The notes under the pieces were generated by a model. That model worked only from the letters and a program-made list of their open reading frames with translations, searched no databases and was not told the origin of the DNA. Made by a program: the position numbers and the translations under genes. Shown in pieces: positions 16,601 through 64,000 of a stretch of 64,000 nucleotides of DNA. The stretch lies in NCBI RefSeq assembly GCF_030068455.1, contig NZ_JAQOSQ010000007.1, positions 1 through 64,000 of the forward strand, in the 5' to 3' direction. Positions within the stretch are counted from its first letter, which is position 1. Each line of letters begins with the position of its first letter. This DNA is from Roseofilum casamattae BLCC-M143. GTDB taxonomy: Bacteria; Cyanobacteriota; Cyanobacteriia; Cyanobacteriales; Desertifilaceae.

Positions 16601-17190
16601 AACATCGACTGGAAGCGAGCGGCTTAAAAGCTATTGCTCCGGAAGATGGAATGCAAGCGTTAGGAGAACTGCTCTCCGGAAGTTCCGGGCAAGTTGGAGT
16701 CTTTCCGGTGAAATGGTCGGCATTCCTGCAACAAGTGCCGGAGCGCTCTCAAGTTTCCTTCCTAGAGAACTTCAGCTCCTCGATAGCGGCAGAGGATATC
16801 GCGATCGATAATAGCGCAGACGAGGACGAAAAAGGCGATCGCCTGTTAGATGAAATTCAGGCAGCCCCCTCGGAAGAGCGCGACGCACTTCTCCTCGTTC
16901 ACCTCTCCGAAAAAATCTCCCATCTCTTAGGGATGAAAGACGGTCAAATCGATCGCGAAAAACCCTTAACCATGATGGGTCTCGACTCATTGATGGCGGT
17001 GGAGTTGCGCAACTTATTACAACGAGAACTGGAGGTGGATATTGCCATTCCGCAACTGATTGAAGGAATAAGTGTTCTGGAGATAACTGACTTGGTTTCG
17101 CAAAAAATCTTGCTCGACCAAATCAGTAGCGTCGATGATTCTGCAACTGAAGATATTCATGAAGATGATATGGAGGAAATTACCCTATGA
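10654..17190 (+). CDS. Type I polyketide synthase: KS-AT-DH-ER-KR-ACP
   Basis: A 2178-residue, fully reducing polyketide synthase module. KS: about residues 12-450, active Cys180 in VDAACSSS, His315 in EAHGTGT and His362 in KSNIGHLEG. AT: about 555-870, Ser647 in GHSVGEY; the HAFH at 749-752 indicates malonyl-CoA. DH: about 925-1190, His954 and Asp1123 (HPALLDAAFQ). The DH motif HxxxGxxxxP has Asp in place of Gly (HRVFDRALFP). A structural pseudo-KR (about 1215-1430) precedes the ER (about 1440-1765, NADPH loop HSAAGGVGQAA). KR: about 1785-2000, Tyr1940 and an LDD motif (B-type). ACP Ser is 2112 in GLDSL. There is no loading domain before the KS, so the starter comes from another protein or the KS acts iteratively. 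The stop overlaps the next ATG (ATGA). Confidence 0.95.
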   Translation: MESRKHKGNSGIAVVGMSCRFPGAKNYSQFWKNLEEGVNSIGEIPQQRWSIDRYYSPTPQDPHKTISKWGGFVEGVDRFDAQFFNISPREAEKIDPQHRIMLELSWSCLEDAGYAPKQLSGEPVGVFIGVCNYDYDTLQHKTDENTNGHSGTGTWVCMLPNRISSFFNFHGPSIPVDAACSSSLVAVHQAIDAIANKECHVALVGGVSVCSSPTRYIQMSQLGMLSPTGQCKTFDKDADGYVRGEGAGVILLKSVEQAVADGDRIYGIIRGSAINHGGRARTLTSPNVYAQAQVLRSAYTRANIPPDTVSYIEAHGTGTPLGDPIEINALKRGFRQLHQQYGLSKEKQAYCGLGAVKSNIGHLEGAAGIAGLIKILLAVHHKKLPKLVNFNGLNPRIKLKDSPFYIIEKTRKWKRLRTDSGKKIPRRAGVSSFGIGGVNAHVIVEEVPSRYRKRSQTLSSTGVHPFTISAQTPEALRDLVTDCYDRLVSESQLSLCDACYTAATGRSHQFAERLAIAVESKVELQEKLADILKQRDRASLPGISRGKAEQAKGNIAFLFTGQGAQYAEMGRSLYESQPIFQQALEQCNEILNDYLDLPLLDVLYDENCWDKLDRTQYTQPAIFAIEYALYKLWESWGIKPNWVMGHSVGEYAAACVAGIFSLEDGLKLIAMRGRLMQKLPAGGEMVSLLATEAQVREALAEAKVEDRVNIAAFNGPNSIVISGEHNAIATVVEKLKAQGIKTKQLQVSHAFHSPLMEPMLAEFKAVAEEINYSQPQITLISNVTGQPITEEIANADYWVRHIRQPVYFAQSIEALHQQGCDRFLEVGPKPILLGMGRQCLPEGAGIWLPSLRPNVEDERQMFSSLGELYVGGTPIDWQGVYQDRQYQKIALPTYPFQRQRYWIDAEVVAETPVLTNAKTLHPLLGSKLQLAGVDRQQHFNAYISETAPVYLTDHRVFDRALFPATGYLEMAIAAAKHQFNAACVGVENVTIRQGLILPEAEVKQLQTIITPIDNRRYKFEIYSAPAESDDPAWTLHTEGKLKAVPADSDEDGSLEAYRAECQAAITAEDHYASYREIGIEYGDSFQGVVELATGREKVVARIELPEDLRADLKDYYIHPALLDAAFQAIGQALENKAPGMTYLPIGIEQLALYHHPGAAVWAVAHIDSATLKGDITLVDASGTVLVAVQGLSLVATTASALLRTLQPGLKDWYYQIDWKPAALETTAESEPGTWLVFAQNSQLADAIEKALKPKQQKCIWISAGKKYRKFKTPHYQINPTCAEHYEQLLADCSEISGIVHLWGRDEDSSGAPDLAKAVDLSCGSILHLVQALGKASLERQPDLWLVTQGTQNVTDPTEVIQPHYGTLWGLGRTIALEQAQLNCRRIDLDPQAPIKSSLPKLVEELLSPTEEDQIAIRQDTRYVARLGQCFGSAQHKQSGRKAAETNIPVQLKLEEYGSIDNIGWKPLQRRSPGAGEVEIEVKAVGLNFRDVLNALGMLQEYYAEHLGITRADQLTFGFECAGTIAAVGEGVTKWQIGDRVMATLLNDGFSSFLTVPATRVMPQPETMNATQAATLPLTFLTAYYGLQELAKIQAGDRVLIHSAAGGVGQAAVQIAQAAGAEVFATASPGKWDFLKSLGIKHIMNSRTLDFATQVMTDTQGKGVDIVLNSLNGDFIDKSLEVLATNGRFVEIGKIGIWTAEEVAEKRPDAAYFPFDLGEVADAQPDIVTQLGDRLAVDWNQGTLNALPHKIFASSDIQEAFRYMQQAKHIGKVVISMPVSQNEVTITSDATYLITGGLGALGLEIAQWLVEQGARSLMLTSRRSPSETAQTKIAQLEATGASVQVVAADISQEKAVSNLMQTLPQDNGKGSLPLKGIIHAAGVLDDALLQNMSWQQFTKVLAPKMNGTWYLHQHSQHLSLDFFVCFSSIASMLGSAGQGNYAAANGFMDAMANYRQGLGLPALTLNWGPWGQVGMAANLTEEHQHRLEASGLKAIAPEDGMQALGELLSGSSGQVGVFPVKWSAFLQQVPERSQVSFLENFSSSIAAEDIAIDNSADEDEKGDRLLDEIQAAPSEERDALLLVHLSEKISHLLGMKDGQIDREKPLTMMGLDSLMAVELRNLLQRELEVDIAIPQLIEGISVLEITDLVSQKILLDQISSVDDSATEDIHEDDMEEITL

Positions 17191-20100
17191 ACCTGAATGA
17201 GATTTTAGCTAAAGTTTCTAGTTGTGGGATTAAACTTTGGGCAGAAGGAGAAGAGTTGAAGTTGCGCGCCCCCAAAGGTGCTCTGACGGCAGAGTTGCGG
17301 ACTTTAATTAAAGAGAACAAGCCGGAATTATTGAAACTATTGCAGCAAAATGTTGCCAGTTCCGAACCGTCCGTACCTTTAGTTCCGGTTGCCCGAACCG
17401 ATAACTTACTCCTGTCCTATCAGCAAGAGCGACTGTGGACGGTAACGCAGTTGATGGCAGATAGCTCGCCGCTGAATTTGTGTCAGGGGTTGCGCATTGA
17501 AGGGAAGCTGGATGTTCCGCTGCTGCAAGACTGTTTGCAGGAAATGGTGGTGCGTCACGAGACCTTGAGAACGACGTTTGCGCTCTCCGATGCGGGTTTG
17601 GTGCAAGAGGTACTTCCAGAACTAGAAGTCACTTTGGCAGTGGAAGAGTTTGCGAAGCTGACGAAGGCGAAAAAGACAGAAGTCGTGAAGGAGAAAGTCA
17701 CCGAGGAGTTGGCGCAGTCTTTTGATGTGGCGCAAGCTCCCTTGTTTTCGTTTAAGTTATTAAAATTCAGCAAAAAAGAAGCCGTTTTAATCTCCGTTTT
17801 CCATCACATTATCACCGATGGATTATCGCACAACTTGCTCTCGGAAGAGCTGCTGAAACTCTACGATGCAAAGCTGGACGGGCGCGAGTCTCCCCTACCC
17901 GAGTTAGAGATTCAGTATGTGGATTATGTAGCTTGGCAGCGCGAGTACTTGCAGGGAGAAACTCTGGAGAAAGGGGTGGCTTATTGGAAAGAACAATTAG
18001 CCAACGTCGAGACATTATATCCCGTTCCGTGCGATCGCTTTCAAGCCACCGCATCCATGGCGCGCGGAGACCAGGAGTATTTCCAGATTCCCGATAAAGT
18101 TGCGACTGCCGTACAAAAATTCGGTCAAGAAAATAACGTCACGCCGGTTGTTGTCTTCTTATCGGTTTTCTACACGCTCATCTATCAATATTCGCAGAAA
18201 AACGATATCGTGCTCGGGTTTCCCGTCGCTGGCAGATCTCATCCGAAGCTGCAAAGTGCGATCGGATTTTTTGCCGACATTATGCTGTTGCGCGCCAACA
18301 TTGAAGGAAAATCGACGTTCCAAGAATTATTGGCGAACATCAAGAAAGCCACGCTCGATGCTTACGCTTATCAGCATATTCCGCTCAACTACGTCAGTGA
18401 GTTCGTGCAACCGCAAGGGGCGCAAAGTTATAAGAACTTATTCCAACTGTTCTTTGACTATATCGACATTGGCGAAAGCGCTCCCAGCTATGAGAACTTT
18501 GCGACGACTTCGGTTGAAGAAAAACTGCCAGCAGATATCGATTTATTCTTTACCTTAATTAAGATCGAAGGAGAACTGAAAGGCTCCCTCACTTACAACC
18601 CCCACTTATTCGCGCCAGAGACAATTTCTGGGTTCATTGAATCTTATCTGGAAATCTTGCAAGCGGTTCTGGAAACCCCAGAGAGCAAGGTGGATAACTT
18701 GGCGCTGTCTGAGAGTTTAGCCGCTCATAAAACCGAGATTCATAGCCCCGAAACCCAGCGCGCTCTGGTGGAAACTGCTCTGAAAGCTAACCCTGCGGTA
18801 GAAGATTGTGCGGTATTACTCCAAGGAGAAGAACGCATTGCTTACGTGCAAGTTGCCGATGCTGCTGTTGCGGAGAAACTAGGCGCTTACTTATCTCAAT
18901 CTACTTTATCTCCCGATTTAATTCCCAGTGCGTTTATCCCGGTTTCGCAGTTACCGAAAACTGAAGCAGGAGAAGTAGACGAAACTGCACTAACTGGTTT
19001 AGAAGTTATCGACGATGGCGTTATCTCAACTTGGGAAAACGAACTGCGCTCCCTATCCGATATTGAAGAAGTCGCCGTTATCGCGCAACCCCGTACCAGT
19101 TTTTCCGTTAACACCGATACCGTAGAGGAAAATGCCGTAGGGGCGGGTTCGCCAACATCTTCGCCAGAAAAGGATACGATTAGTAAACCCGCCCTTACCA
19201 ATATCGCCGATACCTGCGAAGTAGACGAAATTGCCGAATCGACAGAATTTGATACCTGGACGGACTTGCTCCCCGGTACGGAGAATCCCGCGATTATCAG
19301 TATCGACGATCGCGCGCCACTAACTCACGCTGACTTAAAATCATTCCTCCAGTCTCCAGCTAAGAATGCCAGTTTAGCAGCATTGGGGATTAAAAACGGC
19401 GATCGCGTTTGCTCCGCTATTCCCAACGGACCGGAAGCCGCTGTCGCATTTTTATCCATGGCACAAGAATGCGTCTTCGCGCCGATCAACATTGCCTATA
19501 CGGAAAAACAAGTACTATTCGAGCTAGAAGATCTCAGTGCTGTTGCCCTAATTCTGCAACGGGGACGGGCGGAAAACGAGAAACTGCAAGCCTGCGCCGA
19601 AGGTATTGGCGTGCGGGTTATCGAACTGGTTCCCGATACGGAAACTTGCGGTATCTTCACTTTGGAAGAAGTAACGACAAACGCGAAGACAGTCAAAGCC
19701 GTCAAACGCCAGAAACCCAGTCGCGACGATGTTGCCTTAGTTCTGCATACGAGCGGAACGACGCGAAAACCGAAAACCGTTCCCCTAACTCACGGTAACT
19801 TAACCGCCGGTTCTCTCACCATCAGTCGCACCATCGCGCTAACTCCAGAGGACATTTGCGTTAATGTGATGCCCTTATTCCACATTCACGGACTATCGGT
19901 AAATATCTTAGGCTCCATGCTCGCCGGTGCTAGCGTTATTTGTACCTCTGGGTTATATGGAACTGAAAATGGGATTGCAGATTTCTTTAGCTGGTTGCAA
20001 GGTATTGACAAAATCATGCCAACGTGGTACTCGGCAGTTCCTACCATGCACCAGACTATCTTAGACTATGCCGAAGAGGCGATCGCCAAAACCGGTAGCG

Positions 20101-21590
20101 CTCCCCCCCATTCTCTCCGGTTAATCCGCAACTGCTCTGCTGCTTTGCTTCCGACTATTGCCGAACGCATGGAGAGTGCCTTTGACTGCGAGATTTTGCC
20201 CACCTACGCCATGACCGAATCTATGCCCATTTGCTCTCCAGAACTGGGTTTGGGACTCTCGCGGCGAGGTTCTGTGGGACGCGCGGCCGGGCCGAAACTA
20301 ATTATTGGCGAAGTGCAAGAGAACGAGAAAGGTAAGCCAACGTTGAATATTCTTCCTCCTCATGCCGAAGGAGAAGTCATGGTGCGCGGCGCTTGCGTCA
20401 CTTCCGGATACGAGTTGCGCGACTGGATGGACTATAACCCGAATGAGGAAGCGTTTATCGACGGTTGGTTGCGCACGGGGGATAAAGGCTATATCGACGA
20501 AGACGGATATGTCTATCTCGTCGGCCGGTTTAAGGAGATTATTAACCGGGGTGGCGAAAAGATTAGCCCCATGCTCATCGAAGATTTATTGCAACAACAT
20601 CCCGCTGTCGGACAAGTAGTAGTCTTTGCTGCTCCCCACGAATTGTATGGGGAAGTTGTCGGAGCTGCTATCGTGCCGGCATCTGATGTAATTGAGAAAC
20701 CTTCCCTCACTACTCTCCGACAGTTTGCCTTGCAGCAAAAAGAACTGGAACTCCAGTGGTTGCCCGAGTGTTTGGTCTGGATGGACGCTATTCCGAAAGG
20801 ACATACGGGCAAACCCGCGCGCATTGGTTTAGGCAAACGGTTGGGACTGCCGACTATTCCAACCGATGCTACTGGAGTTCCGAATACTTATATTGCGACA
20901 GAAAAACCGGATAAGACCTATGTCTTAGAAACCGTGCAAAGTCGCAATGCTGGATGTTATTCCTTGCAGCAGTTAGGCATTTACTTTACCGCCAAAACAG
21001 CGGACGTATCTCTGGCTAGCTTGCAACAGGATATCGCGAAAATTGAGGTGCGCGATCGCATCGGCAACCTCACCTTTATCAGTCCTTCTGCCATTACTCA
21101 GTTAGAGCAACTTCCGATAACCGCAAGCGGCAAAATCGACCGGAAAAAACTCCGCAGTTTCGCCCAACCTGTAGGGGCGGGTTCGCCAACATCTAGTTTG
21201 CAAAACGGCAATCTCGAAAACCCGCCCCAAGGCAACGAAATCGAGCAGCAAATTATCCAAGTTTGGAAAGAAGTGCTACAACTAGAAACAGTTGGCATTC
21301 ACGATAACTTCTTCGAGTTGGGAGGTAAATCAGTTCTATTGGTTCAAGTCTATGGTAAATTGCAAGAATTGTTCGACCTCAACTTAAAAGTGGTGGACTT
21401 ACTTGCCTATCCTACCGTGGGTTCATTGAGCCAATATATTGCGAGCAATGGTTCTCCAACCGGAGCTAATGGCAGTTCGGCGAAGACAGCTAAAGCGAAG
21501 GAAAGCAATGAAAAACGCTTGACCAAACGCTTGGCGAAAAAAGACCGAGGGAGCGCGCGGAAAAAACATCGTTCTACCGCTCGCAAATAA
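17187..21590 (+). CDS. NRPS-like protein: docking-condensation-acyl ligase-PCP
   Basis: A 1467-residue protein. Residues 1-55 form a TubC-type N-terminal docking domain (MNLNEILAKVSSCGIKLWAE). A condensation domain follows (about 70-500) with the intact HHxxxDG at 206-212 (HHIITDG). Next comes a leftover adenylation C-terminal subdomain (about 530-630, ending LPKTEAGEVD). The complete activating domain spans about 695-1220: LHTSGTTRKPKTVPLTHGNL near 850, PLFHIHGL and GRFKEIINRGGEKI. PLFHIHGL is typical of acyl- or oxalyl-CoA ligases, in place of the FD motif of amino-acid A domains, so a carboxylic acid is the likely substrate. A second A-type C-terminal subdomain (about 1240-1325, LPITASGKIDRKKL) and a PCP (Ser1382 in GGKS) follow. 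The tail is very basic. Two 62-bp-type repeats lie in frame at codons 651 and 1329. Confidence 0.9.
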   Translation: MNLNEILAKVSSCGIKLWAEGEELKLRAPKGALTAELRTLIKENKPELLKLLQQNVASSEPSVPLVPVARTDNLLLSYQQERLWTVTQLMADSSPLNLCQGLRIEGKLDVPLLQDCLQEMVVRHETLRTTFALSDAGLVQEVLPELEVTLAVEEFAKLTKAKKTEVVKEKVTEELAQSFDVAQAPLFSFKLLKFSKKEAVLISVFHHIITDGLSHNLLSEELLKLYDAKLDGRESPLPELEIQYVDYVAWQREYLQGETLEKGVAYWKEQLANVETLYPVPCDRFQATASMARGDQEYFQIPDKVATAVQKFGQENNVTPVVVFLSVFYTLIYQYSQKNDIVLGFPVAGRSHPKLQSAIGFFADIMLLRANIEGKSTFQELLANIKKATLDAYAYQHIPLNYVSEFVQPQGAQSYKNLFQLFFDYIDIGESAPSYENFATTSVEEKLPADIDLFFTLIKIEGELKGSLTYNPHLFAPETISGFIESYLEILQAVLETPESKVDNLALSESLAAHKTEIHSPETQRALVETALKANPAVEDCAVLLQGEERIAYVQVADAAVAEKLGAYLSQSTLSPDLIPSAFIPVSQLPKTEAGEVDETALTGLEVIDDGVISTWENELRSLSDIEEVAVIAQPRTSFSVNTDTVEENAVGAGSPTSSPEKDTISKPALTNIADTCEVDEIAESTEFDTWTDLLPGTENPAIISIDDRAPLTHADLKSFLQSPAKNASLAALGIKNGDRVCSAIPNGPEAAVAFLSMAQECVFAPINIAYTEKQVLFELEDLSAVALILQRGRAENEKLQACAEGIGVRVIELVPDTETCGIFTLEEVTTNAKTVKAVKRQKPSRDDVALVLHTSGTTRKPKTVPLTHGNLTAGSLTISRTIALTPEDICVNVMPLFHIHGLSVNILGSMLAGASVICTSGLYGTENGIADFFSWLQGIDKIMPTWYSAVPTMHQTILDYAEEAIAKTGSAPPHSLRLIRNCSAALLPTIAERMESAFDCEILPTYAMTESMPICSPELGLGLSRRGSVGRAAGPKLIIGEVQENEKGKPTLNILPPHAEGEVMVRGACVTSGYELRDWMDYNPNEEAFIDGWLRTGDKGYIDEDGYVYLVGRFKEIINRGGEKISPMLIEDLLQQHPAVGQVVVFAAPHELYGEVVGAAIVPASDVIEKPSLTTLRQFALQQKELELQWLPECLVWMDAIPKGHTGKPARIGLGKRLGLPTIPTDATGVPNTYIATEKPDKTYVLETVQSRNAGCYSLQQLGIYFTAKTADVSLASLQQDIAKIEVRDRIGNLTFISPSAITQLEQLPITASGKIDRKKLRSFAQPVGAGSPTSSLQNGNLENPPQGNEIEQQIIQVWKEVLQLETVGIHDNFFELGGKSVLLVQVYGKLQELFDLNLKVVDLLAYPTVGSLSQYIASNGSPTGANGSSAKTAKAKESNEKRLTKRLAKKDRGSARKKHRSTARK
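19137..19198. repeat. 62-bp inverted repeat inside the NRPS-like gene
   Basis: Arms GTAGGGGCGGGTT (19137-19149) and AACCCGCCCTTAC (19186-19198). The frame reads through it as VGAGSPTS at the start and KPALT at the end, in the linker before the acyl ligase domain. Confidence 0.9.
21171..21231. repeat. 61-bp inverted repeat inside the NRPS-like gene
   Basis: Left arm GTAGGGGCGGGTT is perfect; the right arm AACCCGCCCC has lost its TAC end (reads CAAG). It codes VGAGSPTS at the start, in the linker between the adenylation region and the PCP. The degraded arm suggests an old insertion. Confidence 0.85.
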
Positions 21591-21635
21591 TTACTAAACC
21601 CATCCCTCTGTAGGGTCTGGTTTACCGATGAATCT

Positions 21636-21697
21636 GTAGGGGCGGGTTTACACACCATATCGTTTGCGAGCGAAAAGATGGGTGAACTCGCCCCTAC
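21636..21697. repeat. 62-bp inverted repeat between synthase genes
   Basis: Arms GTAGGGGCGGGTT (21636-21648) and AACTCGCCCCTAC (21685-21697), between the NRPS-like gene and the second PKS. A partial left arm, GTAGGGTCTGGTTTACC, begins at 21610. The element could extend the next reading frame upstream, which is why the longer start at 21664 is not used. Confidence 0.9.
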
Positions 21698-21747
21698 GGG
21701 CAAGCATAGACAATCTTTTTTATCCCAAAAACTCAAGGAAACGAACG

Positions 21748-24700
21748 ATGACTCAACAGGACGAGAACTTAAGCGATATTGAAATTGATGAGAATGATAT
21801 TGCCATCGTTGGGATGTCCGGTCGATTTCCCGGCGCGAAAAATCTAGACGAGTTTTGGCATAATCTGAAGAATGGCGTTGAGTCTATTTCTTTCTTATCG
21901 GAGAGACAGTTATTAAAATCGGGAATAGAGCGCGAGTTATTGGACGACCCCAACTATGTCAGAGTGAGTGGTTCGATTTCTGATATTGACTTATTTGATG
22001 CGAAATTTTTTAACTATTCTCCTAGAGAAGCGCAAGAGATTGACCCGCAACAGCGACTCTTCTTAGAATGCTCTTGGGAAGCGATAGAAAGTGCTGGTTA
22101 CGACCCGGAAAATTATGATGGTTCTATCGGCGTTTATGCCGGAAGCGGACTGCCCACTTATTTAATGTCGCACTTAGGCGAGAAAGACTTTATCGTCCTC
22201 AGCAGTAAGTCCTTCGAGCAAATGGTCGGCAATGATAAAGATTATCTCGCAACTCGGGTTGCTTATAAGCTGAATCTAACCGGTCCGGCGATTAACGTGC
22301 AAACGGCTTGCTCGACTTCTTTGGTTGCCGTCCATTTAGCCTGTCAAAGTATTCTGAACGGGGAATGCGATATGGCTCTAGCCGGAGGTATTTCGGTCCA
22401 AGTGCCGCAAGAAGTGGGTTACTTATACCAAGAAGGAATGATTTTATCTCCCGACGGTCATTGTCGCGCTTTTGATGCTAATGCTCAAGGTACGGTATTT
22501 GGGAATGGTATTGGCGTCGTCTTGTTGAAAGGATTGGAAGATGCGATCGCAGATGGCGATCCGATCTATGCTGTAGTGAAAGGCTCGGCGATTAATAATG
22601 ACGGTTCTCTGAAACTGGGATATACCGCTCCCAGCGTGGAAGGGCAAGCGTCGGTTATTTCGGAAGCGCAAGCGGTTGCCGGAGTTGACCCCAGTAGCAT
22701 ATCTTATGTAGAAGCTCACGGGACGGGAACGAAACTGGGCGACCCTATTGAGATTGAAGCGTTGAGTCGGGTATTCTCGGAAGATACGGACGATAAACAA
22801 TTTTGCGCTATTGGTTCGGTGAAGGCCAATGTAGGACATTTAAATACGGCTGCGGGTGTGGTGGCGCTGATTAAGACCGTCTTGTCATTGAAGCATAAAG
22901 TCTTAGTCCCGAGCATAAACTACGATCGCCCCAATCCCCAAATTGATTTCGAGAATAGTCCCTTTTACGTTAATACTGAGTTAGTCGATTGGGAAACCAA
23001 TGGAGAACCTCGGCGCGCTGGAGTTAGCTCTTTTGGCGTTGGGGGAACCAACTCCCACGTAGTATTGCAAGAACCTCCGGAAGTTATCGTCGAAAAAAAT
23101 AAGGAAGAGAGACCTCGCCACGTGCTCGCACTTTCGGGGAAAACGCCGGAAGCTCTCCGCGACTTGGCGCGCAACTATCAGAATTATCTGCAAAATAACC
23201 CCGACGTTAATCTCGCCGATGTTTGCTACAGCGCCAATACCGGGCGCGCGCAGTTCTCCTGCAAACTAGCAGTATCGGCGGCGGATACCAAGGAACTGGT
23301 CGAGAAATTATCGATAAGTCCCGAAAATGGTAGGGGCGGGTTCAGCAGTAATGTTGTTTTCAGCCAAGATAGTAGTGAACCCGCCCCTACAGGCCCCGTG
23401 ATATCTAATTCTGGGAAAGTCGCATTCTTGTTTACCGGACAAGGCTCCCAAGTGGTAGACATGGGATTGGAACTCTATCTCCATTCTGACGTATTTCGGG
23501 ATGCGATCGCCGAGTGCGACGAACTTCTCGACTTAGAGCCACCGTTGCTCGACGTGCTCTATCCCAATTTAAAGCAAAAGAAACGGGGACGGAAACCGAA
23601 GAAAACTCTACTCGACCAAACCTCTTATACGCAACCGGCCCTATTTGCCGTCGAATATGCCCTCGCGCAAGTTTGGCTTTCTTGGGGTATTAAGCCAGAT
23701 ATCGTCATGGGACATAGCGTCGGCGAATATGTAGCCGCAGTTATTGCTGGAGTCTTTAGTCTCGAAGATGGGTTAAAACTGATTGAAGCGCGCGCCAAGT
23801 TGATGCAAGAATTGCCTGCTGGTGGCGGGATGCTTTCTGCCATGGTATCAGAAACCGACCTAAAACCGATACTCGCCGAATATGGCGATAAAGTAGCAGT
23901 CGGAGCGCTCAACGGGCCGCAGAGTACAGTTATTTCTGGTAAGAATAAGGTATTGGATGCGATCGCCGCAACTCTGGAAGAAAAAGGCATCAAAACCAAA
24001 GCGCTGCAAGTCTCCCACGCTTTCCACTCCCCGCTAATGGAACCCATGTTAGCGGAATTCGAGACTATCGCCAAAGAGCTAACCTACGATACTCCCGAGA
24101 TTCCCTTGGTCTCTAATGTCACCGGAAAGCTCGCGGATGTTACCATTGCCAGCGCTCAATATTGGGTAGACCACGTGCGGCAACCGGTGCGCTTTGCTCA
24201 ATCCATGCAAACCTTGCACCAACAGGGATACGACCTCTTCCTCGAAGTGGGACCGCAACCGGTATTATTGGGAATGGGACGGAAATGCCTGCCCGCCGAT
24301 ACCGGTATTTGGTTACCTTCTTTGCGCTCCGGTGCGGACGACTGGGAACAAATCCTCGATAGTTTAGCCGAGTTATACGCGCAAGGAATAACTGTAGATT
24401 GGTCGGCGTTTGATGAAGACTATTACCGGCAGAAGGTAGTTGTCCCGACTTATCCTTTCCAGCGAGAGCGTCATTGGATTGAACCTTTCGCCAGCCAACC
24501 GTCCGGACGGGCGGGTTTACAAACCATCTGGTCTGGAAATGGAGATCTCGGTGAACCCGCCCCTACAGCATCTTATCCGTTATTAGGACATAAATTCCCG
24601 CTCCCCCTCACCGAGCAGGTGCGCTTCCAAACCCAATTTAGTCCCGAGTTTCCCTCCTACACCAAAGACCACCGCTACTATGACAAAGTCGTAGTTGCCG

Positions 24701-27408
24701 GAGCCTCTCATATTGTCATGGGATGGTTGGCAGCACAGCAAGCCCTGAAGAGCGACGCTTGCGTCTTAGATGATATCGAGTTTACCCAGATTTTAGGGGG
24801 AGACGATACGCGCACGGTGCAAGTTGTGCTCGAGCAAACGGCTGAAGGTGAATACGATTATCAGTTAATTAGCTGTTTAGCCGGTGAGGAAAATAACCCT
24901 GATACTACGTGGATCGTGCATACGACGGCGAAGGTGAGGGGATTGGCAGAGTCCGAGCGCGAGAAAGATACGCTGGATTTGGAGGCAATTCGCGCGCGAT
25001 GCGATCGCAATCTTCCCAGTAGCGATTACTACTCCGCCGTCCTCGACCCCCTCGACGGACAATTTATGCTCGGCACCACCTTCCAATGGACGGAAGAAGC
25101 CTGGCTCGGCAATGGAGAAGGCTTGATTAAGCTCAAATCTCCCGCCACCCATCCGGAAATGGATGAATACTGGCCCCATCCCGGTGCCATCGATGCTGGT
25201 ATTGTCCCGGTAGCCCTACTTTCAGTTTCTAGAGAAACGGATAACGGCGATGGAGCAACCGAACCCGCAGCGTATGCCTTTACCCGCGCCGATAGCTTCC
25301 GCATCCTGCAAGCCATTGACAAAAATGAAGAATTATGGTATTATACCAAGCTAGATGAGTATGCCACTCCCGACCAACTGCGCGGCAACACTTATTTAGT
25401 TACTTCCAGTGGGGATATCGTCGCCGAATATATCGGTATCGACTTCCGCGAGCTGAGTCGCAAGTTATTGCTGAAGAGCTTTGGCTTAGATTTGGATGAC
25501 TGGTACTATCAACTGCAATGGCAACCGTCGGAGTCTAGTACGGAAGCAACAATAGAGGACAGCGGAACTTACGCGATATTAGCACCGAATGTAGAAGTCG
25601 GCGATCGCATTTCCGCTGCGTTAACCGAAAAAGGCTATCAAACTATCCTCGCTTATCCGGGAGAGAAATACGAGCAAACCGACGCCCAACATTATCAACT
25701 GCGTCCGACTGCTGCGGAAGATTTCGGTCAATGGTGGGAAACCATCAATGCCAGCGATGCAACCATTCGCGGAATATTGCACCTTTGGGGATTAGACGGT
25801 CAACCGATAGCGTCGAGCAATATTGACAACAAGCAAGAATTAACTTGCGCGAGCATCTTGAATCTCTTGCAAGGCGTACCTTCCGCCAACGAATTACCTC
25901 CTCTGTGGTTAGTCACCCAAGGTGGACAAGCCGTAACCGACGATACCCTAGTTGCTCCGGAACAATCCTTACTTTGGGGTCTGGGTAAAGTCATTCCCAT
26001 GGAACATCCAGAACTGCAATGTCGTTGCATCGACCTCGACCCGAAATCCAACTCTCCCGAGCAAGACTTCATTAAAGAACTCTTATCGCCAACGGGAGAA
26101 AACCAGGTCGGGTATCGCGACGGGGAGCGCTATGCACTGCGCATGGCATCCGCGCGAGTCGAGAGCAAACCGGTAACCCCGACCCCAGACGGATCGTACC
26201 TGATTACGGGAGGTTTAGGCGCATTGGGATTGGCGATCGCCGAAAACCTAGTATCAGAAGGCGCGCAACACCTGATACTCACCGGACGCTCCACCCCCTC
26301 CGAGTCCGCCCAACAAACCATTTCCGCCTTAGAAGAAACCGGCGCAACTATCTCCGTCTTCCAAGCCGACATTTCCGATAAAGAACATGTGGTTGGGTTG
26401 TTCGAGCAGATAAAAAAATTACCAGCATTAAAAGGAGTCATCCACGCCGCTGGTTTATTAGACGATAGCGTCCTGCAACAAATGACCTGGGAGCGCTTCT
26501 CCAAAGTCCTGGCGCCGAAAGTCTCCGGCACCTGGTACTTACACGAATCCACCAAAGACTTAGATCTCGACTTCTTCGCCTGCTTCTCCTCCATTGCCTC
26601 CATGCTCGGTTCCCCCGGACAAAGCAACTATGCCGCCGCCAACGGCTTCATGGATGCGATCGTTTATACTCGTCGTAGCCAGGGATTACCCGGAATTAGC
26701 ATTAACTGGGGACCTTGGGCAAACATCGGTCTAGCCGCGCGCATGGGAGCGCAACAGCAAAACCGCCTCGCCGACCAAGGAATCCAGATGATTCCCGCCG
26801 AGCAAGGGTTACAAGCACTGACGGAACTATTGGGAAGCGAACAAACCCAAGCGGCTGTCTTCCCCGTCAACTGGCCCCAGTTCTTAATCCAAATGGGAGG
26901 AAGCAATAGTCCTCCCATACTCCAAGAAATTGCCGGTCAGTTCGACCTGGAAAATCTGGGAGGTGGCTCCGGACCGAGGTTGCGCGAATTCTTAGAACAG
27001 GTAAAAGCGGCTTCTGGCGATCGCAGATTATCCCTAATCTTAGAATATCTCACCACAACCGTCGCCAAAGTCTTGCGCCGTTCTCCGAAAGATTTACCCG
27101 ACGCCGAAGAAGGCTTTTTCAACTTAGGTCTCGATTCCTTGATGACTATCGATTTAGCCCAAAAAATTCAAAACGATTTGGGAATTTCCCTCTCGTCTAC
27201 CGCCACTTTTGAATATCCGAATATTCAAGAACTTACCGGTTATGTCGATGAAGTTATTCCCAAAATCGAGGTCGTCGAAGAAGAAGCCGAAGGCGCGGTT
27301 TCCGAAATCGATACCGAACGCTTGATGCAAGAAATTGCCCAACTATCAGGAGAGGAGTTAGATCAATCCATTGATGAAGCTTTAACCGAACTGTATGCAT
27401 TAATCTGA
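21748..27408 (+). CDS. Type I polyketide synthase: KS-AT-DH-KR-ACP
   Basis: A 1886-residue module starting at ATG 21748 behind AAGGA; an upstream in-frame start at 21664 would only translate the intergenic repeat. KS: about residues 20-440, Cys188 in VQTACSTS, plus EAHGTGT and KANVGHLN. AT: about 555-890, with GHSVGEY and HAFHSPLM, indicating malonyl-CoA. DH-like domain: about 945-1220. Its His975 is present in DHRYYDKVVVAG, but the motif has Asp in place of Gly and Ala in place of Pro; the second motif, HPGAIDAG, keeps its Asp. KR: about 1470-1690, NADPH loop TGGLGALG, Tyr1628 and LDD (B-type). There is no ER. ACP: Ser1797 in GLDSL. The acidic C-terminal helix looks like a docking tail. Two in-frame repeats lie in the KS-AT and AT-DH linkers (codons 528 and 920). 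Confidence 0.94.
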   Translation: MTQQDENLSDIEIDENDIAIVGMSGRFPGAKNLDEFWHNLKNGVESISFLSERQLLKSGIERELLDDPNYVRVSGSISDIDLFDAKFFNYSPREAQEIDPQQRLFLECSWEAIESAGYDPENYDGSIGVYAGSGLPTYLMSHLGEKDFIVLSSKSFEQMVGNDKDYLATRVAYKLNLTGPAINVQTACSTSLVAVHLACQSILNGECDMALAGGISVQVPQEVGYLYQEGMILSPDGHCRAFDANAQGTVFGNGIGVVLLKGLEDAIADGDPIYAVVKGSAINNDGSLKLGYTAPSVEGQASVISEAQAVAGVDPSSISYVEAHGTGTKLGDPIEIEALSRVFSEDTDDKQFCAIGSVKANVGHLNTAAGVVALIKTVLSLKHKVLVPSINYDRPNPQIDFENSPFYVNTELVDWETNGEPRRAGVSSFGVGGTNSHVVLQEPPEVIVEKNKEERPRHVLALSGKTPEALRDLARNYQNYLQNNPDVNLADVCYSANTGRAQFSCKLAVSAADTKELVEKLSISPENGRGGFSSNVVFSQDSSEPAPTGPVISNSGKVAFLFTGQGSQVVDMGLELYLHSDVFRDAIAECDELLDLEPPLLDVLYPNLKQKKRGRKPKKTLLDQTSYTQPALFAVEYALAQVWLSWGIKPDIVMGHSVGEYVAAVIAGVFSLEDGLKLIEARAKLMQELPAGGGMLSAMVSETDLKPILAEYGDKVAVGALNGPQSTVISGKNKVLDAIAATLEEKGIKTKALQVSHAFHSPLMEPMLAEFETIAKELTYDTPEIPLVSNVTGKLADVTIASAQYWVDHVRQPVRFAQSMQTLHQQGYDLFLEVGPQPVLLGMGRKCLPADTGIWLPSLRSGADDWEQILDSLAELYAQGITVDWSAFDEDYYRQKVVVPTYPFQRERHWIEPFASQPSGRAGLQTIWSGNGDLGEPAPTASYPLLGHKFPLPLTEQVRFQTQFSPEFPSYTKDHRYYDKVVVAGASHIVMGWLAAQQALKSDACVLDDIEFTQILGGDDTRTVQVVLEQTAEGEYDYQLISCLAGEENNPDTTWIVHTTAKVRGLAESEREKDTLDLEAIRARCDRNLPSSDYYSAVLDPLDGQFMLGTTFQWTEEAWLGNGEGLIKLKSPATHPEMDEYWPHPGAIDAGIVPVALLSVSRETDNGDGATEPAAYAFTRADSFRILQAIDKNEELWYYTKLDEYATPDQLRGNTYLVTSSGDIVAEYIGIDFRELSRKLLLKSFGLDLDDWYYQLQWQPSESSTEATIEDSGTYAILAPNVEVGDRISAALTEKGYQTILAYPGEKYEQTDAQHYQLRPTAAEDFGQWWETINASDATIRGILHLWGLDGQPIASSNIDNKQELTCASILNLLQGVPSANELPPLWLVTQGGQAVTDDTLVAPEQSLLWGLGKVIPMEHPELQCRCIDLDPKSNSPEQDFIKELLSPTGENQVGYRDGERYALRMASARVESKPVTPTPDGSYLITGGLGALGLAIAENLVSEGAQHLILTGRSTPSESAQQTISALEETGATISVFQADISDKEHVVGLFEQIKKLPALKGVIHAAGLLDDSVLQQMTWERFSKVLAPKVSGTWYLHESTKDLDLDFFACFSSIASMLGSPGQSNYAAANGFMDAIVYTRRSQGLPGISINWGPWANIGLAARMGAQQQNRLADQGIQMIPAEQGLQALTELLGSEQTQAAVFPVNWPQFLIQMGGSNSPPILQEIAGQFDLENLGGGSGPRLREFLEQVKAASGDRRLSLILEYLTTTVAKVLRRSPKDLPDAEEGFFNLGLDSLMTIDLAQKIQNDLGISLSSTATFEYPNIQELTGYVDEVIPKIEVVEEEAEGAVSEIDTERLMQEIAQLSGEELDQSIDEALTELYALI
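23330..23390. repeat. 61-bp inverted repeat inside the second PKS gene
   Basis: Arms GTAGGGGCGGGTT (23330-23342) and AACCCGCCCCTAC (23378-23390), both perfect. Translated as GRGGF at the start and SEPAPTG at the end, in the KS-AT linker. The left arm is read in a different frame from the other coding copies because this copy is one base shorter. Confidence 0.92.
24505..24566. repeat. 62-bp inverted repeat inside the second PKS gene
   Basis: Left arm GGACGGGCGGGTT is diverged; right arm AACCCGCCCCTAC is perfect. Translated as GRAGLQTI at the start and GEPAPTA at the end, in the AT-DH linker. Confidence 0.88.
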
Positions 27409-27417
27409 CATTGTGCT

Positions 27418-27479
27418 GTAGGGGCGGGTTAACCAACCATCTAGTTTACGAACCAAAATGTATGTAAACCCGCCCTTAC
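27418..27479. repeat. 62-bp inverted repeat between PKS genes (first copy)
   Basis: Arms GTAGGGGCGGGTT (27418-27430) and AACCCGCCCTTAC (27467-27479). The core contains AACCATCTAGTTT, shared with other copies, which shows this is a related family and not chance palindromes. Confidence 0.9.
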
Positions 27480-27497
27480 CCCCTGGTCTACGCAAAA

Positions 27498-27560
27498 GAT
27501 TGGGCGGGTTTAGAAAAGTTATCGTGAAACCTAATAAATCTTGGTAAAACCCGCCCCTAC
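27498..27560. repeat. 63-bp inverted repeat between PKS genes (second copy)
   Basis: Left arm GATTGGGCGGGTT is partly diverged; right arm AACCCGCCCCTAC (27548-27560) is perfect. It lies 18 bases after the previous copy, making a tandem pair. The remaining spacer to the next start carries a 14-base direct repeat, TTAATTATTCATTG, at 27567-27580 and 27588-27601. Confidence 0.85.
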
Positions 27561-27606: not shown

Positions 27607-30600
27607 ATGGTTACTGAACTCTCTAAAGAACAACGTCTTCTGCTCGCCGTGCGCCAAGCGAGCGCCAAACTGAACGCAATTGAAGAAGCCAAAAATGAGG
27701 CGATCGCAATTGTCGGGATGGGCTGCCGATTTCCTGGCGGCGGCGACAGTCCGGAAGCCTATTGGGACGTACTCAAACAATCGAAAGACGCGCTCATCGA
27801 TATCCCTAAAGATCGCTGGGATATCGACGAATATTACGACTCCGACCCCGAAGCTCCGGGGAAAATGTACGTGCGTCAAGGCTATTTCCTCCAGCAAAAA
27901 GTCGATGAATTCGAGCCAGCCTTCTTCGGAATTTCCGGACTGGAAGCGGCAAAAATGGATCCCTCGCAGCGCATACTTTTAGAAGTAAGCTGGGAAGCCT
28001 TAGAAGATGCCGGAATTGCGCCGAAAAGTCTAAAAAATACCGAAACAGGCGTTTATGTCGGTCAGTGTTTTAACGATTATGCCCGAGTCGGCACCGATGT
28101 TTCCGTCAATCATCTTCCCGACTTCTATTTAGGGACGGGGACGGCAATGAATATTACTGCCGGACGCATCGCTTATGTCCTGGGACTGCAAGGGCCGACG
28201 TTTTGCTTGGATACCACCTGTTCCTCTTCCTTAGTTACCGTCCATTTAGCCGCCCAAAGTTTGCGATCGGGCGAGTGCAATTTAGCACTGGCTGGGGGCG
28301 TAAATCTAATGCTTCATCCCTCTACAACTCACGGTTTCTGCAAGGGTAGAGCGCTCGCTGCCGATAGCCGGTGTAAAACATTTGACGCGGGTGCCGATGG
28401 GTACGCGCGGGGTGAAGGATGCGGGATGCTCGTATTGAAACGGATGCGGGATGCGGTTGCCGATGGCGATCGCATTTTAGCATTAGTGCGCGGCTCGGCA
28501 ATCAACCACGACGGCCCCAGCAGCGGCTTAACCGTCCCCAACCAACAAGCGCAGAAAAAGGTAATTCGCCAAGCTTTAAATAGCGCAAAATTAGAGCCGA
28601 GCGATGTTAGCTATGTCGAGTGCCACGGCACGGGAACTTCGTTGGGCGACCCCTTGGAAGTGAAGGGACTCAATGAAGTCTACGGCGAAGAACGCAAGCG
28701 CGACAATCCTTTATTATTAGGGGCAGTGAAGAGTAATGTCGGACACTTAGAAGCTGCCGCTGGTGTCGCCGGATTGATTAAAATTATCTTATCTTTGCAG
28801 CACGAAGAAATTCCGGCAAACATGAATTTCAAGCAACCGAATCCTCGGATTGAATGGAATAAAATGGCGGTGAAAGTGTTAGCGAAATCCACGCCTTGGG
28901 TGCGCGGAGAAAAAGAGCGATGTGCTGGAGTCAGTGGATTTGGCATGAGCGGAACCAATGCTCACATTATTCTTTCCGAAGCTCCTCAACCCGTCGCTCA
29001 GTCTGAAGAGAATAGTCCTCGTTCTTCTCAGGTCTTAACCATATCGGCGCGCAATGAGAAATCCCTGCAAGAATTAATCCAGCGCTATCATACTTATCTG
29101 GCAAATAGCGAATTAGATTTAGCTGCTATTTGCCATACCGCGAATACCGGACGCAACGAGTTTAATCATCGTATCGCGATCGTGGCTAATAGTCGCGAAG
29201 ATTGTGCGAAAAAACTGGGCAAACTTAAGGGTGGTGACGACGACGTAACCGGAGTTTATTCGGCGAAGTTAGCGAATAGTTCTCGTCCGCCGAAAATTGG
29301 CTGGTTGTTCACCGGACAAGGTTCCCAATACGTCAATATGGGACGGGAGTTGTACGAAACTTCTTCCGTATTCCGCGATGCCATAGACTCTTGCGCGCAA
29401 GTCTTGGATACAGAGCTAGAAACGCCACTACTTTCCGTCCTTTATCCAGAAGACGAATCTACCACAAAAGCAGGCACTATCGACCAAACCGCTTACACGC
29501 AACCGGTCTTATTTTCCATCGAATACGCATTAGCAAAACTCTGGCAGTCTTTAGGCATTCAACCCGATATTATGACCGGTCATAGTGTGGGCGAATATCC
29601 GGCCGCAGTTATTGCTGGAGTCTTTAGTCTAGAGGATGGCTTAAAACTTATTGCCGCGCGGGGACGGTTGATGCAACAGTTGCCTGCTGGCGGCACCATG
29701 GTTTCCCTGATGGCAGGGTTGGATAAAGTACAAGAACTGGTGGAAAAATCTGGCGGGAAAGTTAGTATTGCTGCACTCAACGGACCGGAAAGTACGGTAA
29801 TTTCTGGGGAAGAAGAAGCGGTGATGGCGATCGCCAAATCCCTAGAAGACGAAGGCATCAAAACCAAGCAACTGCAAGTCTCCCACGCCTTCCACTCCGC
29901 CTTAATGGAACCCATGCTTGCGGACTTTGAGGCCGTGGCGAAGGAGGTGACCTACCATACACCGCGCATTCCTATTGTCTCCAACTCAACGGATGCGATC
30001 GCAGATAAAACAATTACCACTCCTCAGTACTGGGTCGATCGTATCCGGCAAGCGGTACAATTCTACCCCAGTATGCAAGTTTTGGCTAAAGAAGACATCG
30101 AGATCTTCCTCGAAATTGGCTCTAAACCCATCTTAATGGGTCTCGGCCGTCAATGCCTGATGGGCAGCAAGAAAACCTGGCTCCCCAGCTTGCGTCCGGG
30201 CAAAAAAGATTGGGTGCAAATGTTGCAAAGTTTGGGACAACTTTACATCGCTGGAGTTAAAATCAATTGGGCTAACCTCGATCGAGAATTTGCTTACCAA
30301 ACCGTAAGTTTACCCACCTATCCTTGGACGAGACGGCGCTATTGGATTACCGACCTGCAAGATAAAGACAAGAATATTCTCCCCACCGCTGAGGTCAAAA
30401 CACCGGTCAAAGCGCAACCCGTCGTTGAGATAAAACCGGAGAAAAAAGTTGCAGTTGCTCCCGTAAAAGCGATCGCAAAACCGGTAGCCGAACCTGTCTT
30501 AGCTACTGCAAAAGTCAGTACGGGTAAACTTCGCTTGCTTAGTCCCCAAGAAATGAGCGTTTCTCCAGTTAGAGAAGAATCTCCCGTGGCGGCAAAACGG

Positions 30601-45698: not shown

Positions 45699-45779
45699 AG
45701 GTTTCTCCCTCAATCGGAACATTGTTGCCAGTATAGCTTAATGCTGTATGGTCGCAGAGGGAGCTTACTACAGGTTAGT

Positions 45780-46568: not shown

Positions 46569-46607
46569 GGGCTGCTTCCTCAATAGGAAAATTATCCCCA
46601 GTATAGC

Positions 46608-60871: not shown

Positions 60872-63800
60872 ATGTACACCCAGGTTAAATCCAACATTCG
60901 CCGCGTCACTGTCACCGACACTCCTCCAACCCCAGGTATTGATGGGGAAACTTTAGAATCTCTAGCTAGAGGCGAGTCCGTTTCTCCAGTACCTCAAGGA
61001 GAGCGAACCATCGTCAAGGTGGTGTACATCGTCATGGAGGGACAATACCAAAGTGCCCTCACTCAAGCCGCGCAAAGCATTAACCGCAATGCCAACAACG
61101 ATCGCATTGGCGTGGAACTGAGCGGCTATTTAATTGAAGAACTGCGCAATCCCGAGAACTACGAAGAGTTCGAGCGAGATATGGAAACCGCCAATATCTT
61201 TATTGGCTCGCTCGTCTTTATCGAGGATTTAGCCGATAAGATTGTGGCGACCGTCACTCCCCATCGCGATCGCCTCGATGCGGCTGTGGTCTTTCCCTCC
61301 ATGCCACAAGTGATGCGCCTGAACAAGCTGGGCAGCTTCAGCATGGCGCAGTTGGGGCAGTCGAAAAGCGCGATCGCCTCGTTCATGAAGAAGCGCAAAG
61401 AAGCCAGCGGTTCTTCGTTCCAAGATGGAATGCTGAAACTCTTGCGCACCCTGCCGAAAGTCCTGAAATACATGCCCATCGATAAAGCTCAGGACGCGCG
61501 CAACTTCATGCTCTCTTTCCAATATTGGTTGGGGGGTTCGCCAGAAAACTTGAGCAACTTCCTGTTGATGCTGGCGGACAAATACGTTCTTACTGGCGAT
61601 AAAGGTCATTCTTCCACAGCAGAGATTGCTCCTCTGCAATACAACGATCCGGTGGTCTATCCCGATATGGGAATCTGGCATCCTCTCGCGCCGAAAATGT
61701 TTGAAGATCGAGCAGAATACTTGGCTTGGTATCGCAGTCGCGACGATATCCCAGAAGACCTGAAAGACCCCCTAGCTCCCTGCGTGGGTTTGGTGCTGCA
61801 ACGGACGCACTTGGTGACTGGCGATGACGCTCACTATGTGGCTCTGGTGCAAGAGCTGGAATCGAGAGGAGCGAGAGTTCTTGGTGTCTTCGCGGGTGGT
61901 TTAGACTTCTCCAAACCGGTGGATGCTTACTTCTGGGATACCAACTCGGAAACTCCTGTGGTCGATACCGTCATCTCTCTGACTGGATTTGCTCTCGTCG
62001 GGGGGCCGGCGCGCCAAGACCACCCGAAAGCGGTAGAATCTCTACGACGGCTGAATCGTCCTTACATGGTGGCTCTGCCTTTGGTCTTCCAAACTACGGA
62101 AGAGTGGGAAGCTTCCGAGTTGGGACTGCACCCGGTACAAGTGGCTCTGCAAATTGCGATTCCGGAACTCGATGGGGCGATCGAACCGATTATTTTGTCG
62201 GGACGGGATGGCGCAACTGGGAAGGCGATCGCCCTGCAAGATAGAATTGAATCCGTTGCCAGTCGTGCCATGAAGTGGGCGAACCTGCGCCGCAAACCGA
62301 AACTGGAGAAAAAAGTCGCCATTACGGTCTTTAGTTTCCCTCCGGATAAAGGGAATGTGGGAACCGCCGCATACCTGGATGTATTTGGCAGTATCTACGA
62401 AGTGGTACGAGCATTGCGCGACAACGGTTACGATATTGGCGAACTGCCGGAATCTCCGCAAGCAATGATGGAAGCAGTAATTCACGATGCTTCTGCACAA
62501 TATGCGTCTCCAGAGCTGAATGTGGCTTATCGCATGTCCGTGCAAGAATACGAGCGCCTTACTCCTTACTCCGAGCGCTTGGAAGAAAACTGGGGTCCCC
62601 CTCCTGGAAACTTGAATAGCGACGGACAAAACCTGCTGGTTTATGGTAAGCACTTCGGCAACCTGTTTATTGGGGTACAACCTACTTTCGGGTATGAAGG
62701 CGATCCCATGCGCTTGCTCTTCTCCCGTTCGGCTTCTCCCCACCACGGGTTTGCTGCTTACTATACCTATCTGGAGAATATCTGGGGAGCCGATGCGGTA
62801 CTCCATTTCGGAACTCACGGTTCCCTCGAGTTCATGCCTGGTAAGCAAATGGGAATGTCCGGCGAGTGCTATCCAGATAATCTGATTGGTTCGATTCCCA
62901 ACTTGTACTACTATGCGGCCAACAACCCTTCCGAAGCAACGATCGCCAAACGTCGCGGTTATGCTGCCACCATTTCTTACCTGACTCCTCCTGCTGAAAA
63001 TGCCGGTTTGTACAAAGGATTGGCAGAACTGAGCGATTTGATTGGTTCTTATCAGCAACTGAAGCATACTCCCCGAGGCGAGCAAATCGTTCTGACGATT
63101 ATCGAGAAATGCCGCCAAGTTAACCTCGACCAAGATATTGTTTTACCAGATACCGTAGGGGCGGGTTCTGCAACCTCTGACTCTTCCAACCAAAATGTCA
63201 GTGAACCCGCCCCTACAGCGGGCCTGTCTTTGGAAGAGCGCGATAACCTGGTGGGTGCGGTCTACAACAAGTTGATGGAGATTGAGTCGCGCTTGTTGCC
63301 TTGCGGTTTGCATATCGTCGGGAAACCGCCAACAGCGACGGAGGCGATCGCAACTCTCGTTAATATCGCCAATATCGATCGCCCGGAAGATGGCATCGAG
63401 TCCCTTCCTCGGATTATTGCTCGCAGCATCGACCAAGATATCGATCGCATCTACGAAAGTAGCGATCGCGGCATCCTGGAAGACGTGGAACTCTACAACC
63501 AAATCGTACAAGCGACTCGGTTGGCCGTCACCGCTCTAGTGGAAGAACAAACTAATGCTGAAGGTCGGGTATCTCTGGTCTCCCGGTTGAACTTCCTCAA
63601 TATGGGTAAAAAAGCGCCTTGGGTGCGCGCGCTCAACGATCTCGGATATACCAATCTGGATACGGAAGCGCTGAAAACTCTGATGGAATATCTGGAGTTC
63701 TGCTTGGAGCAAGTCTGCGCGGATAACGAGTTGGGCGGCCTGTTGCAAGCTCTGGAAGGAGAATACATCCTTCCCGGCCCCGGAGGCGACCCCATCCGCA

Positions 63801-64000
63801 ACCCGGATGTGCTGCCTACTGGTAAAAATATCCACGCTCTCGATCCCCAGTCTATTCCGACAGAAGCAGCGATTAAATCTGCCAAGCGCGTCGTAGACCA
63901 ACTGCTGCAACGCCACCAGATGTCTAACGACGGTCAACTTCCGGAAACCATTGCAACGGTTCTCTGGGGAACGGATAACATCAAAACCTTTGGCGAATCT
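60872..64000 (+). CDS. chlH: Magnesium chelatase subunit H, partial at the right edge
   Basis: The first 1043 codons of ChlH, which normally has about 1330. It binds protoporphyrin IX and, with ChlI and ChlD, inserts Mg2+ as the first step of chlorophyll synthesis. The frame starts at ATG 60872 with AAGGA upstream, reads [16 protein letters not shown], and stays open to position 64000. Family blocks are [16 protein letters not shown] (about 52-67), [23 protein letters not shown] (about 212-234, in two parts) and [20 protein letters not shown] (about 645-664). [19 protein letters not shown] follows at about 800-818. Between codons 762 and 782 a 62-bp repeat is inserted in frame, in a loop before [11 protein letters not shown]. 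The 5' leader is about 280 bases long and structured. Confidence 0.97.
63155..63216. repeat. 62-bp inverted repeat inside chlH
   Basis: Arms GTAGGGGCGGGTT (63155-63167) and AACCCGCCCCTAC (63204-63216) are both perfect. It starts exactly on a codon and translates as VGAGSATS at the left and SEPAPTA at the right. It is 36 kb from the cluster of other copies, so the family is dispersed and not confined to the synthase genes. Confidence 0.93.

Follow-up and report, generated by a model that had tools for sequence, protein, structure and literature searches.

A stretch of cyanobacterial DNA from the genus Roseofilum carries palindromic repeats inside housekeeping and synthase genes. They very probably belong to a double-foot REP family copied by a cognate RAYT, of which a 62-nt coding subfamily persists within genes and changes there in frame, apparently also by inversion of its core. 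The initial annotation had read them as one element, probably mobile in origin, placed in frame in linkers. Below, the window is the whole stretch of 64,000 nt that was analysed, and the genus genomes are labelled G000 (the genome of the window) to G005.

Copies in the window and its genome

All eight copies previously noted lie where they had been placed, with lengths of 61–63 nt as described, see Table 1. Arm matches with at most two mismatches number 17 in the window against 1.13 expected, and none of 100 shuffles contained as many. A strict pattern finds 23 copies in the window genome (5.1 Mb, 74 contigs), while its reversed control finds 0. The claim that these are copies of one element is thus upheld, and chance palindromes are ruled out both by the shuffles and by the control. 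Seven of the strict copies are in the window, six of them inside 19137–27560; the one at 21636 is kept out of the strict set by a single arm mismatch. The clustering of six strict copies within 8.4 kb of NRPS/PKS genes is far beyond chance, as about 7e-9 such sets are expected. At the level of single arms, the whole genome contains 36 exact and 18 one-mismatch places, against 14 in total for the reversed control. Decayed single arms therefore barely exceed the background, while exact arms are abundant.

Some details of the earlier description need adjustment. The shared 13-base arms are both perfect in the copies at 23330 and 63155, but the other six copies have one to three mismatches in one arm. 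Five of the eight copies (19137, 21171, 23330, 24505 and 63155) are in frame within long ORFs, and those at 21636, 27418 and 27498 lie between long ORFs. The location in linkers is correct for the four NRPS/PKS copies, which fall between Pfam domains, but the chlH copy lies inside a single CobN-Mg_chel match.

Table 1. Copies of the repeat in the window and the genes that contain them.
Feature	Coordinates	Strand	Remarks
62-bp double-foot REP copy, in frame (VGAGSPTSSPEKDTISKPALT)	19137..19198	.	between Condensation and AMP-binding; core orientation B
61-bp copy, in frame (VGAGS..., right end then shifted)	21171..21231	.	between AMP-binding_C and PP-binding
62-bp intergenic copy	21636..21697	.	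upstream of the next open frame's first ATG, 21748
61-bp copy, in frame (GRGGFSSNVVFSQDSSEPAPT)	23330..23390	.	between KS linker and acyltransferase; orthologous site of G005 has the 29-bp short form
62-bp copy, in frame (GRAGLQTIWSGNGDLGEPAPT)	24505..24566	.	between acyltransferase and dehydratase
62-bp intergenic copy	27418..27479	.	
63-bp intergenic copy	27498..27560	.	
62-bp copy, in frame in chlH (21 residues)	63155..63216	.	
NRPS-type gene (TubC_N, Condensation, AMP-binding, PP-binding)	17187..21590	+	two copies inside
PKS gene (KS, AT, DH, KR, ACP)	21748..27408	+	two copies inside; start is the open frame's first ATG
chlH (CobN/Mg-chelatase family)	60872..64000	+	one copy inside; runs off the window; start is the first ATG of the open frame

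Anatomy of the element

The two arms, GTAGGGGCGGGTT and AACCCGCCCCTAC, are 13 nt each and pair across the whole element, with a variable core between them. The element is mostly 62–63 nt long in the genus, and the 62-nt class has a 36-nt core. Structure prediction for single-stranded DNA gives an outer stem between the two arms in all eight window copies (z from -2.3 to -7.6). A general core AACCATCTAGTTT, proposed from the window copies, is not borne out, as the consensus of 56 cores of the genus is CACCAAATTTTTCGTCTTCCAACCAAGATCTTGGTG and is only weakly conserved (22 bits over 36 nt). A core-less form of 29 nt also exists, GTAGGGGCGGGTTTGAAACCCGCCCCTAC (VGAGLKPAPT). With small variations it replaces the long form at some orthologous sites: chlH, gltB, the eCIS core, L266a and QueA in G003, and pksB in G005.

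The feet GT[AG]G and C[TC]AC are present at the two ends of one hairpin. Opposite an intact GTAG, the foot is CTAC at 214 of 249 ends in other genera; the corresponding counts in this genus are CTAC at 52 and CCAC at 31 of 184 ends. The dinucleotide CT, which the text of PMC8266576 gives as a cleavage site of TnpAREP, stands directly 5' of GTAG in 21% of ends both in the genus (39 of 184) and in other genera (52 of 249), against a background of 5.7%. Before GTAG, CC is commoner than CT in the genus (53 vs 39 of the 184 ends).

Between distant species the arms differ by 11.0%, third positions included, the cores by 38.5% and the flanking four-fold sites by 38.6% (44 pairs that are not independent). 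Pairs were taken with both arms within four mismatches, which makes the value for the arms slightly too low, and flipped pairs are counted in the value for the cores. The arms thus seem to be held as DNA, while the core drifts freely.

Distribution across genomes

A search for the arms through the genome and its relatives, as the initial annotation had proposed, reveals a dispersed family. Besides the 23 strict copies of the window genome, all six genomes of the genus that were searched have the element, with 21–113 copies each. The numbers are highest in G003 (108) and G004 (113), both with an arm-flanked RAYT, versus 21–62 in the other four. Matches occur in 13 of 39 genomes searched, i.e. 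the six of the genus and seven that belong to the same order but not to the same family. Within the family, two further genera (g2 and g3), with four genomes between them, gave no match. When a stricter pattern was applied to the whole phylum, 34 of the 386 cyanobacterial genomes matched, spread over 19 of 142 genera. A copy from Roseofilum halophilum is 89.6% identical to one of G004 over 67 nt, core included.

At least 108 stretches came from a scan of named genomes, to which many cyanobacteria and a small number of MAGs contribute. The same arms are seen in the MAG stretches L110, L113, L114, L133, L164, L179 and L190, and the MAG hosts among the matches listed are Acidobacteria, Solibacter, Desulfobacterales, Desulfomonilaceae, Desulfomicrobiaceae and Methylococcaceae. 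The arms outside cyanobacteria may reflect horizontal spread or mis-binned contigs.

It could be argued that the arms are not selfish at all and are kept for a host function, such as binding of gyrase or a nucleoid protein or an mRNA hairpin, and the slow change of the arms relative to flanking four-fold sites (11% vs 38.6%) is what such a function would leave. The occurrence of the element is patchy, however, as it is present in 34 of 386 genomes and none of the four from g2 and g3 gave a match; this speaks against a host function and makes it improbable.

Copies inside genes

Copies inside genes are biased both in frame and in length. In-frame copies in long ORFs make up 9 of 23 in G000, 6 of 21 in G001, 17 of 51 in G005 and 3 of 14 in G004, a share of 29–39% across the copies examined in G000, G001 and G005. 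The sample of genomic contexts comprised 51 of the 63 strict copies of G005, all 21 of G001 and 14 of the 113 of G004, with G002 and G003 outside it. Among pieces of other genomes, where both feet were required to be intact, three of 115 copies are in frame, two of them in Roseofilum halophilum. A length of 62 nt is found in 33 of 35 coding copies versus 23 of 74 non-coding copies (p 1e-10), and the two coding exceptions are the window copies of 61 nt. All 26 coding copies sampled from G005, G001 and G004 are in phase 0; frame 2 is absent because the foot itself contains TAG.

The coding 62-nt copies read VGAGS...EPAPT or close variants, confirming the similar translated ends noticed in the window. 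That the lengths are not multiples of three had appeared as a puzzle, to be explained by flanking bases or a duplication; the former holds, as a 62-mer plus one flanking base makes 21 codons, but the latter is unsupported (see below). The hosts include ChlH, a CobN-like protein, glutamate synthase (two sites) and a paralogue of it, Mfd, oxoprolinase, a tRNA synthetase with a CAAD domain, QueA, a subtilase, a CHAT protein and the NRPS/PKS pair. We suggest that the 62-nt subfamily of the genus reads through in frame 0, so that copies in interdomain linkers could survive as inserts of 21 residues. This would account for the VGAGS...EPAPT inserts in ChlH, glutamate synthase, Mfd, QueA and the PKS/NRPS linkers.

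Orthologous sites

Across the six species of the genus, sites are often occupied rather than empty, and their sizes differ in steps of three. The anchor-to-anchor stretch at orthologous coding sites is 63 nt, or 63 nt plus or minus multiples of three. No clean empty site and no target-site duplication was found at the orthologous sites compared in the genus, which leaves the proposed duplication at insertion unsupported; with clean empty counterparts this rare, the inserted unit is not defined. To our knowledge, no target-site duplication is expected of a Y1/HUH enzyme.

At the chlH site, G002 has a 62-bp form with the opposite core and G003 a 29-bp form, and in G001, G004 and G005 there is no recognisable element. 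The oxoprolinase of G002 contains a tandem doubling (+75 nt vs G001), and in an eCIS-core gene of G003 (L379) the left arm has expanded to eleven arms in steps of 15 bp, all in frame as SVGAG repeats. The genus offers many orthologous in-frame sites (17 compared) at which the fate of the element, from insertion and persistence to inversion and loss of the core, can be traced. The comparison includes one orthologue at the pksB2 site and zero at the Mfd site.

A second, decayed Mfd copy is present in the window genome (L031 4771–4826), and its two arms have changed in a matching way (GGGGTGGGTT / AACCCACCCC). Relative to four orthologues, this stretch of L031 has an extra 60 nt.

Core orientation and openness of both strands

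At six of the 17 orthologous coding sites, the 36-nt core is found in opposite orientations in different species. Orientation was called with a position matrix from 56 cores, applied to 57 cores at the 17 sites; the set omits chance matches at site 4, cores not of 36 nt and two rows duplicating pksA and CobN, and a 33-nt core of G002 at site 4, which scores in the opposite orientation, was left out of the count.

The clearest similarity between reversed cores is seen in QueA, where the core of G001 agrees with the reverse complement of that of G004 at 32 of 36 positions, a value that 0 of 1508 background pairs reach. At the tRNA synthetase site, six reversed pairs agree at 26–30 of 36 positions (8.7% to 0.3% of background pairs reach them), and the best of these, G002 vs G003, is equalled or exceeded by 0.3% of the background. 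As the QueA site of G004 and G005 is also nested, the less ambiguous of the two cases is that of the tRNA synthetase. At chlH, gltB1, pksA1 and L266a the inverted core match is not above the background of unrelated copies, and independent insertion or exchange is thus possible at these four.

From the reversed cores we infer that the inversions took place within the resident element. Their cause could be the RAYT itself, or else recombination or template switching at the hairpin. Alternatively, opposite cores could be the product of cassette exchange or re-insertion, in which the core of another copy arrives by gene conversion or by RAYT insertion into the element. The background-level matches at chlH, gltB1, pksA1 and L266a are what an exchange would give, and nested and tandem forms do occur, QueA included. 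However, the same core is recognisable in reverse at QueA (32/36) and at the tRNA synthetase site (up to 30/36), and we consider exchange a realistic but somewhat doubtful explanation.

The coding 62-mers are also unusual in being open in frame 0 on both strands, in 33 of 33 cases. Codon shuffles give 25.8 (sd 1.9), with 0 of 2000 reaching 33, and among flanking 39-nt windows in the same register the other strand is open in 303 of 459. This is consistent with cores having been read in either direction in the past. An undecayed ancestral palindrome, open on both strands from the beginning, would likewise combine such openness with conserved arms, given that the arms and inner arms are partly palindromic and the copies are related. 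Yet the cores of distant species differ by 38.5%, the same as four-fold sites, and when look-alike cores are dropped and the inner arms kept constant, 27 of 27 remain open both ways against 22.3 (sd 1.5) in shuffles, 4 of 3000 of which do as well. We therefore find an ancestral palindrome rather unlikely.

Inversion in place, together with the openness of both strands, may be taken one step further. It can be speculated that the element acts as a reversible coding cassette, whose core flips in place within essential enzymes over evolutionary time. Selection would keep both strands open, each being translated in turn, and the DNA of the arms would stay constant so that flip, core loss and regain remain possible, with the RAYT or the hairpin driving the flips. 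We offer this tentatively, as an idea that deserves serious attention but may well be wrong. In more general terms, copies would persist in genes through divergence of the core and its inversion between the inverted arms, and further in-frame changes would include the exchange of 62-nt and 29-nt forms and the gain of tandem arms or elements.

The RAYT partner

A transposase sharing the ends of the element, which the initial annotation had suggested looking for, does exist: a RAYT gene lies beside the arms in related genomes, but the window genome has no arm-flanked RAYT. A search of the genus for Y1 transposases (PF01797) found none in the window genome, and three Y1 loci of G004 are embedded in arrays of the element. 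Y1 transposases in general were rejected as the partner, as 26 of the 30 genus loci listed are without an arm (at most two mismatches). Of the remaining loci, a single weak arm is present at L073, and the other three (L056, L065 and L068) are in arrays. The gene in L056 (G004) encodes 145 residues and is a different and more distant RAYT-like gene, likewise between copies. The surroundings of the G004 RAYT in L068 (800–2500) form an array of composite units of about 120 nt with half elements interleaved.

Homologues were collected by a protein search with one array enzyme of G004 in the 39 and 386 genomes, with similarity as the sole criterion and at most 30 loci listed per search. The nine best of the 57 distinct RAYT genes measured (at least 172 bits, eight genera) all have an arm 8–49 nt from one end of the gene. 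An arm had been flagged at four of the other 48 (L086, L320, L329 and L330), of which two have true arms within reach; the apparent arms in L329 and L330 turned out on inspection to be another repeat, GTAGGGGCGGGGTCTCCCCGCCC. This related repeat occurs in or beside cyanobacterial RAYT genes, at about 1433 in L329 and at about 1373 and 1402 in L330. The weakest of the nine flanked genes, L077 (with one internal stop), is barely more similar than the next, arm-free homologues. In a tree of 51 rows, from which duplicates, fragments and short rows were omitted, seven of the nine arm-flanked genes form one branch (82/89), and the two others are placed outside it without resolution.

The association also holds between genomes: a RAYT match is present in 17 of the 34 element-bearing genomes versus 50 of the 352 others (odds ratio 6, p 4e-6). 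The other 17 element-bearing genomes are without a RAYT match at 1e-12, including G215, which has 79 forward matches of the element. The NCBIfam model REP_Tyr_transpos scores above its cut-off in three of the eight RAYT proteins scanned and below it in five, and a PDB sequence search with the RAYT gave no match at 0.001.

From this association, we infer that the RAYT moves the elements. The arms would pair to a hairpin around the variable core, with a GTAG foot on either strand, and such single-stranded hairpins would most likely be copied by the cognate clade of RAYT (TnpAREP, HUH/Y1). Other species would still carry this clade, flanked by the same ends, and the window genome would keep a small stock of copies while lacking the cognate enzyme. 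Short inverted ends, TA beside GGGG and scattered copies in many genera, all seen here, would also suit a MITE of the usual kind, whose autonomous parent would share the arms and encode a DDE transposase (for example of the IS630/Tc1 type with a TA target). But the genes that adjoin these arms are Y1/HUH RAYTs and the flanks are without a constant duplication, so that a DDE origin appears highly improbable.

The sole RAYT of the window genome is distant and without these arms (L089, G000:C2, about 112.4–113.1 kb). A different double-foot REP, GTAGAGACAAGGCATGCCTTGTCTTTAC, is found near it, which suggests that each RAYT has its own repeat.

Relation to known systems

The initial annotation knew of no described family for this motif, but the kind has been described, as double-foot REPs (text of PMC6006769) and as GTAG REPs in genes (text of PMC3733652). 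The element is a double-foot REP family with a RAYT. According to the text of PMC6006769, double-foot REPs (GTAG...CTAC) belong to TnpAREP subclass 2.4, whose RAYTs have the motifs NH[IFV]H, WQ and YIxNNP and may contain in-frame REP insertions between HUH and Y. The features in common are the GTAG foot with its reverse complement CTAC at the far end, flanking of the RAYT in Cyanobacteria, insertion in the RAYT between HUH and Y, and the NHxH and WQ motifs. REPtron-type flanking is seen for nine of the nine closest RAYTs in other genomes and is absent in the window genome. In the RAYT L086 of G003, the short form is inserted in frame (VGAGFKPAPT) between NHIH and WQ, i.e. between the HUH and Y motifs. 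The NHFH and WQ motifs of L074 agree with the subclass and its YIIDNP is one residue off YIxNNP. The RAYT family appears subclass 2.4-like. Unlike in the text (not the figures) of PMC6006769, the loop is here a core of 36–37 nt, copies are found in unrelated housekeeping genes and both core orientations occur.

GTAG-tagged REPs inserted in frame in genes have been reported in PMC3733652. With its GTAG-12, -15 and -16 REPs, the element has in common the GTAG-tagged palindromes, some in frame, the cyanobacterial hosts and the link to a RAYT. By their description, however, these have stems of 5–13 bp and loops of 2–20 bp, shorter than the core here. The likeness to Rickettsia palindromic elements, raised from the window alone, is real in effect, as both are palindromes placed in frame in many unrelated genes, but the feet differ: RPE-4/6 of R. 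conorii are CGTC repeats, apparently without a dedicated transposase in the text of PMC3733652, while GTAG feet and a RAYT are found here. With GTAG/CTAC feet instead of CGTC, membership among the Rickettsia elements was rejected. The present family thus ties protein-inserting palindromes to a transposase clade, which the Rickettsia case, as described in PMC3733652, apparently lacks.

The element is also similar to REPINs in being RAYT-dependent, non-autonomous and a symmetric hairpin. A REPIN consists of two REPs, each with its own hairpin; here the outer stem joins the two arms in eight of eight window copies, and REPIN membership was rejected.

Among the open-access papers listed for the arm sequence, none deals with a cyanobacterial repeat as far as titles and opening lines of abstracts show, and VGAGLKPAPT, shorter forms of it and the short palindrome were not found there either. 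In-place core inversion and coding palindromes read both ways were not found in the titles and abstract starts of the open-access papers listed, and the accessible text of the RepRanger paper contains nothing on the motif. Thus the sequence family, its spread into the housekeeping genes of one genus and its reversible cores look new, none being found described in open-access text.

Other repeats in the window

Two neighbouring ORFs on the minus strand, 44847–45722 and 45780–46583, have 300 nt in common at 95% identity (45021–45320 and 45891–46190), which points to tandem duplication or conversion of recent date. The PKS-like ORF 27607–31527 contains, close to its end, a direct repeat of 237 nt (30757–30993 and 31093–31329, 71%), perhaps representing tandem carrier domains.
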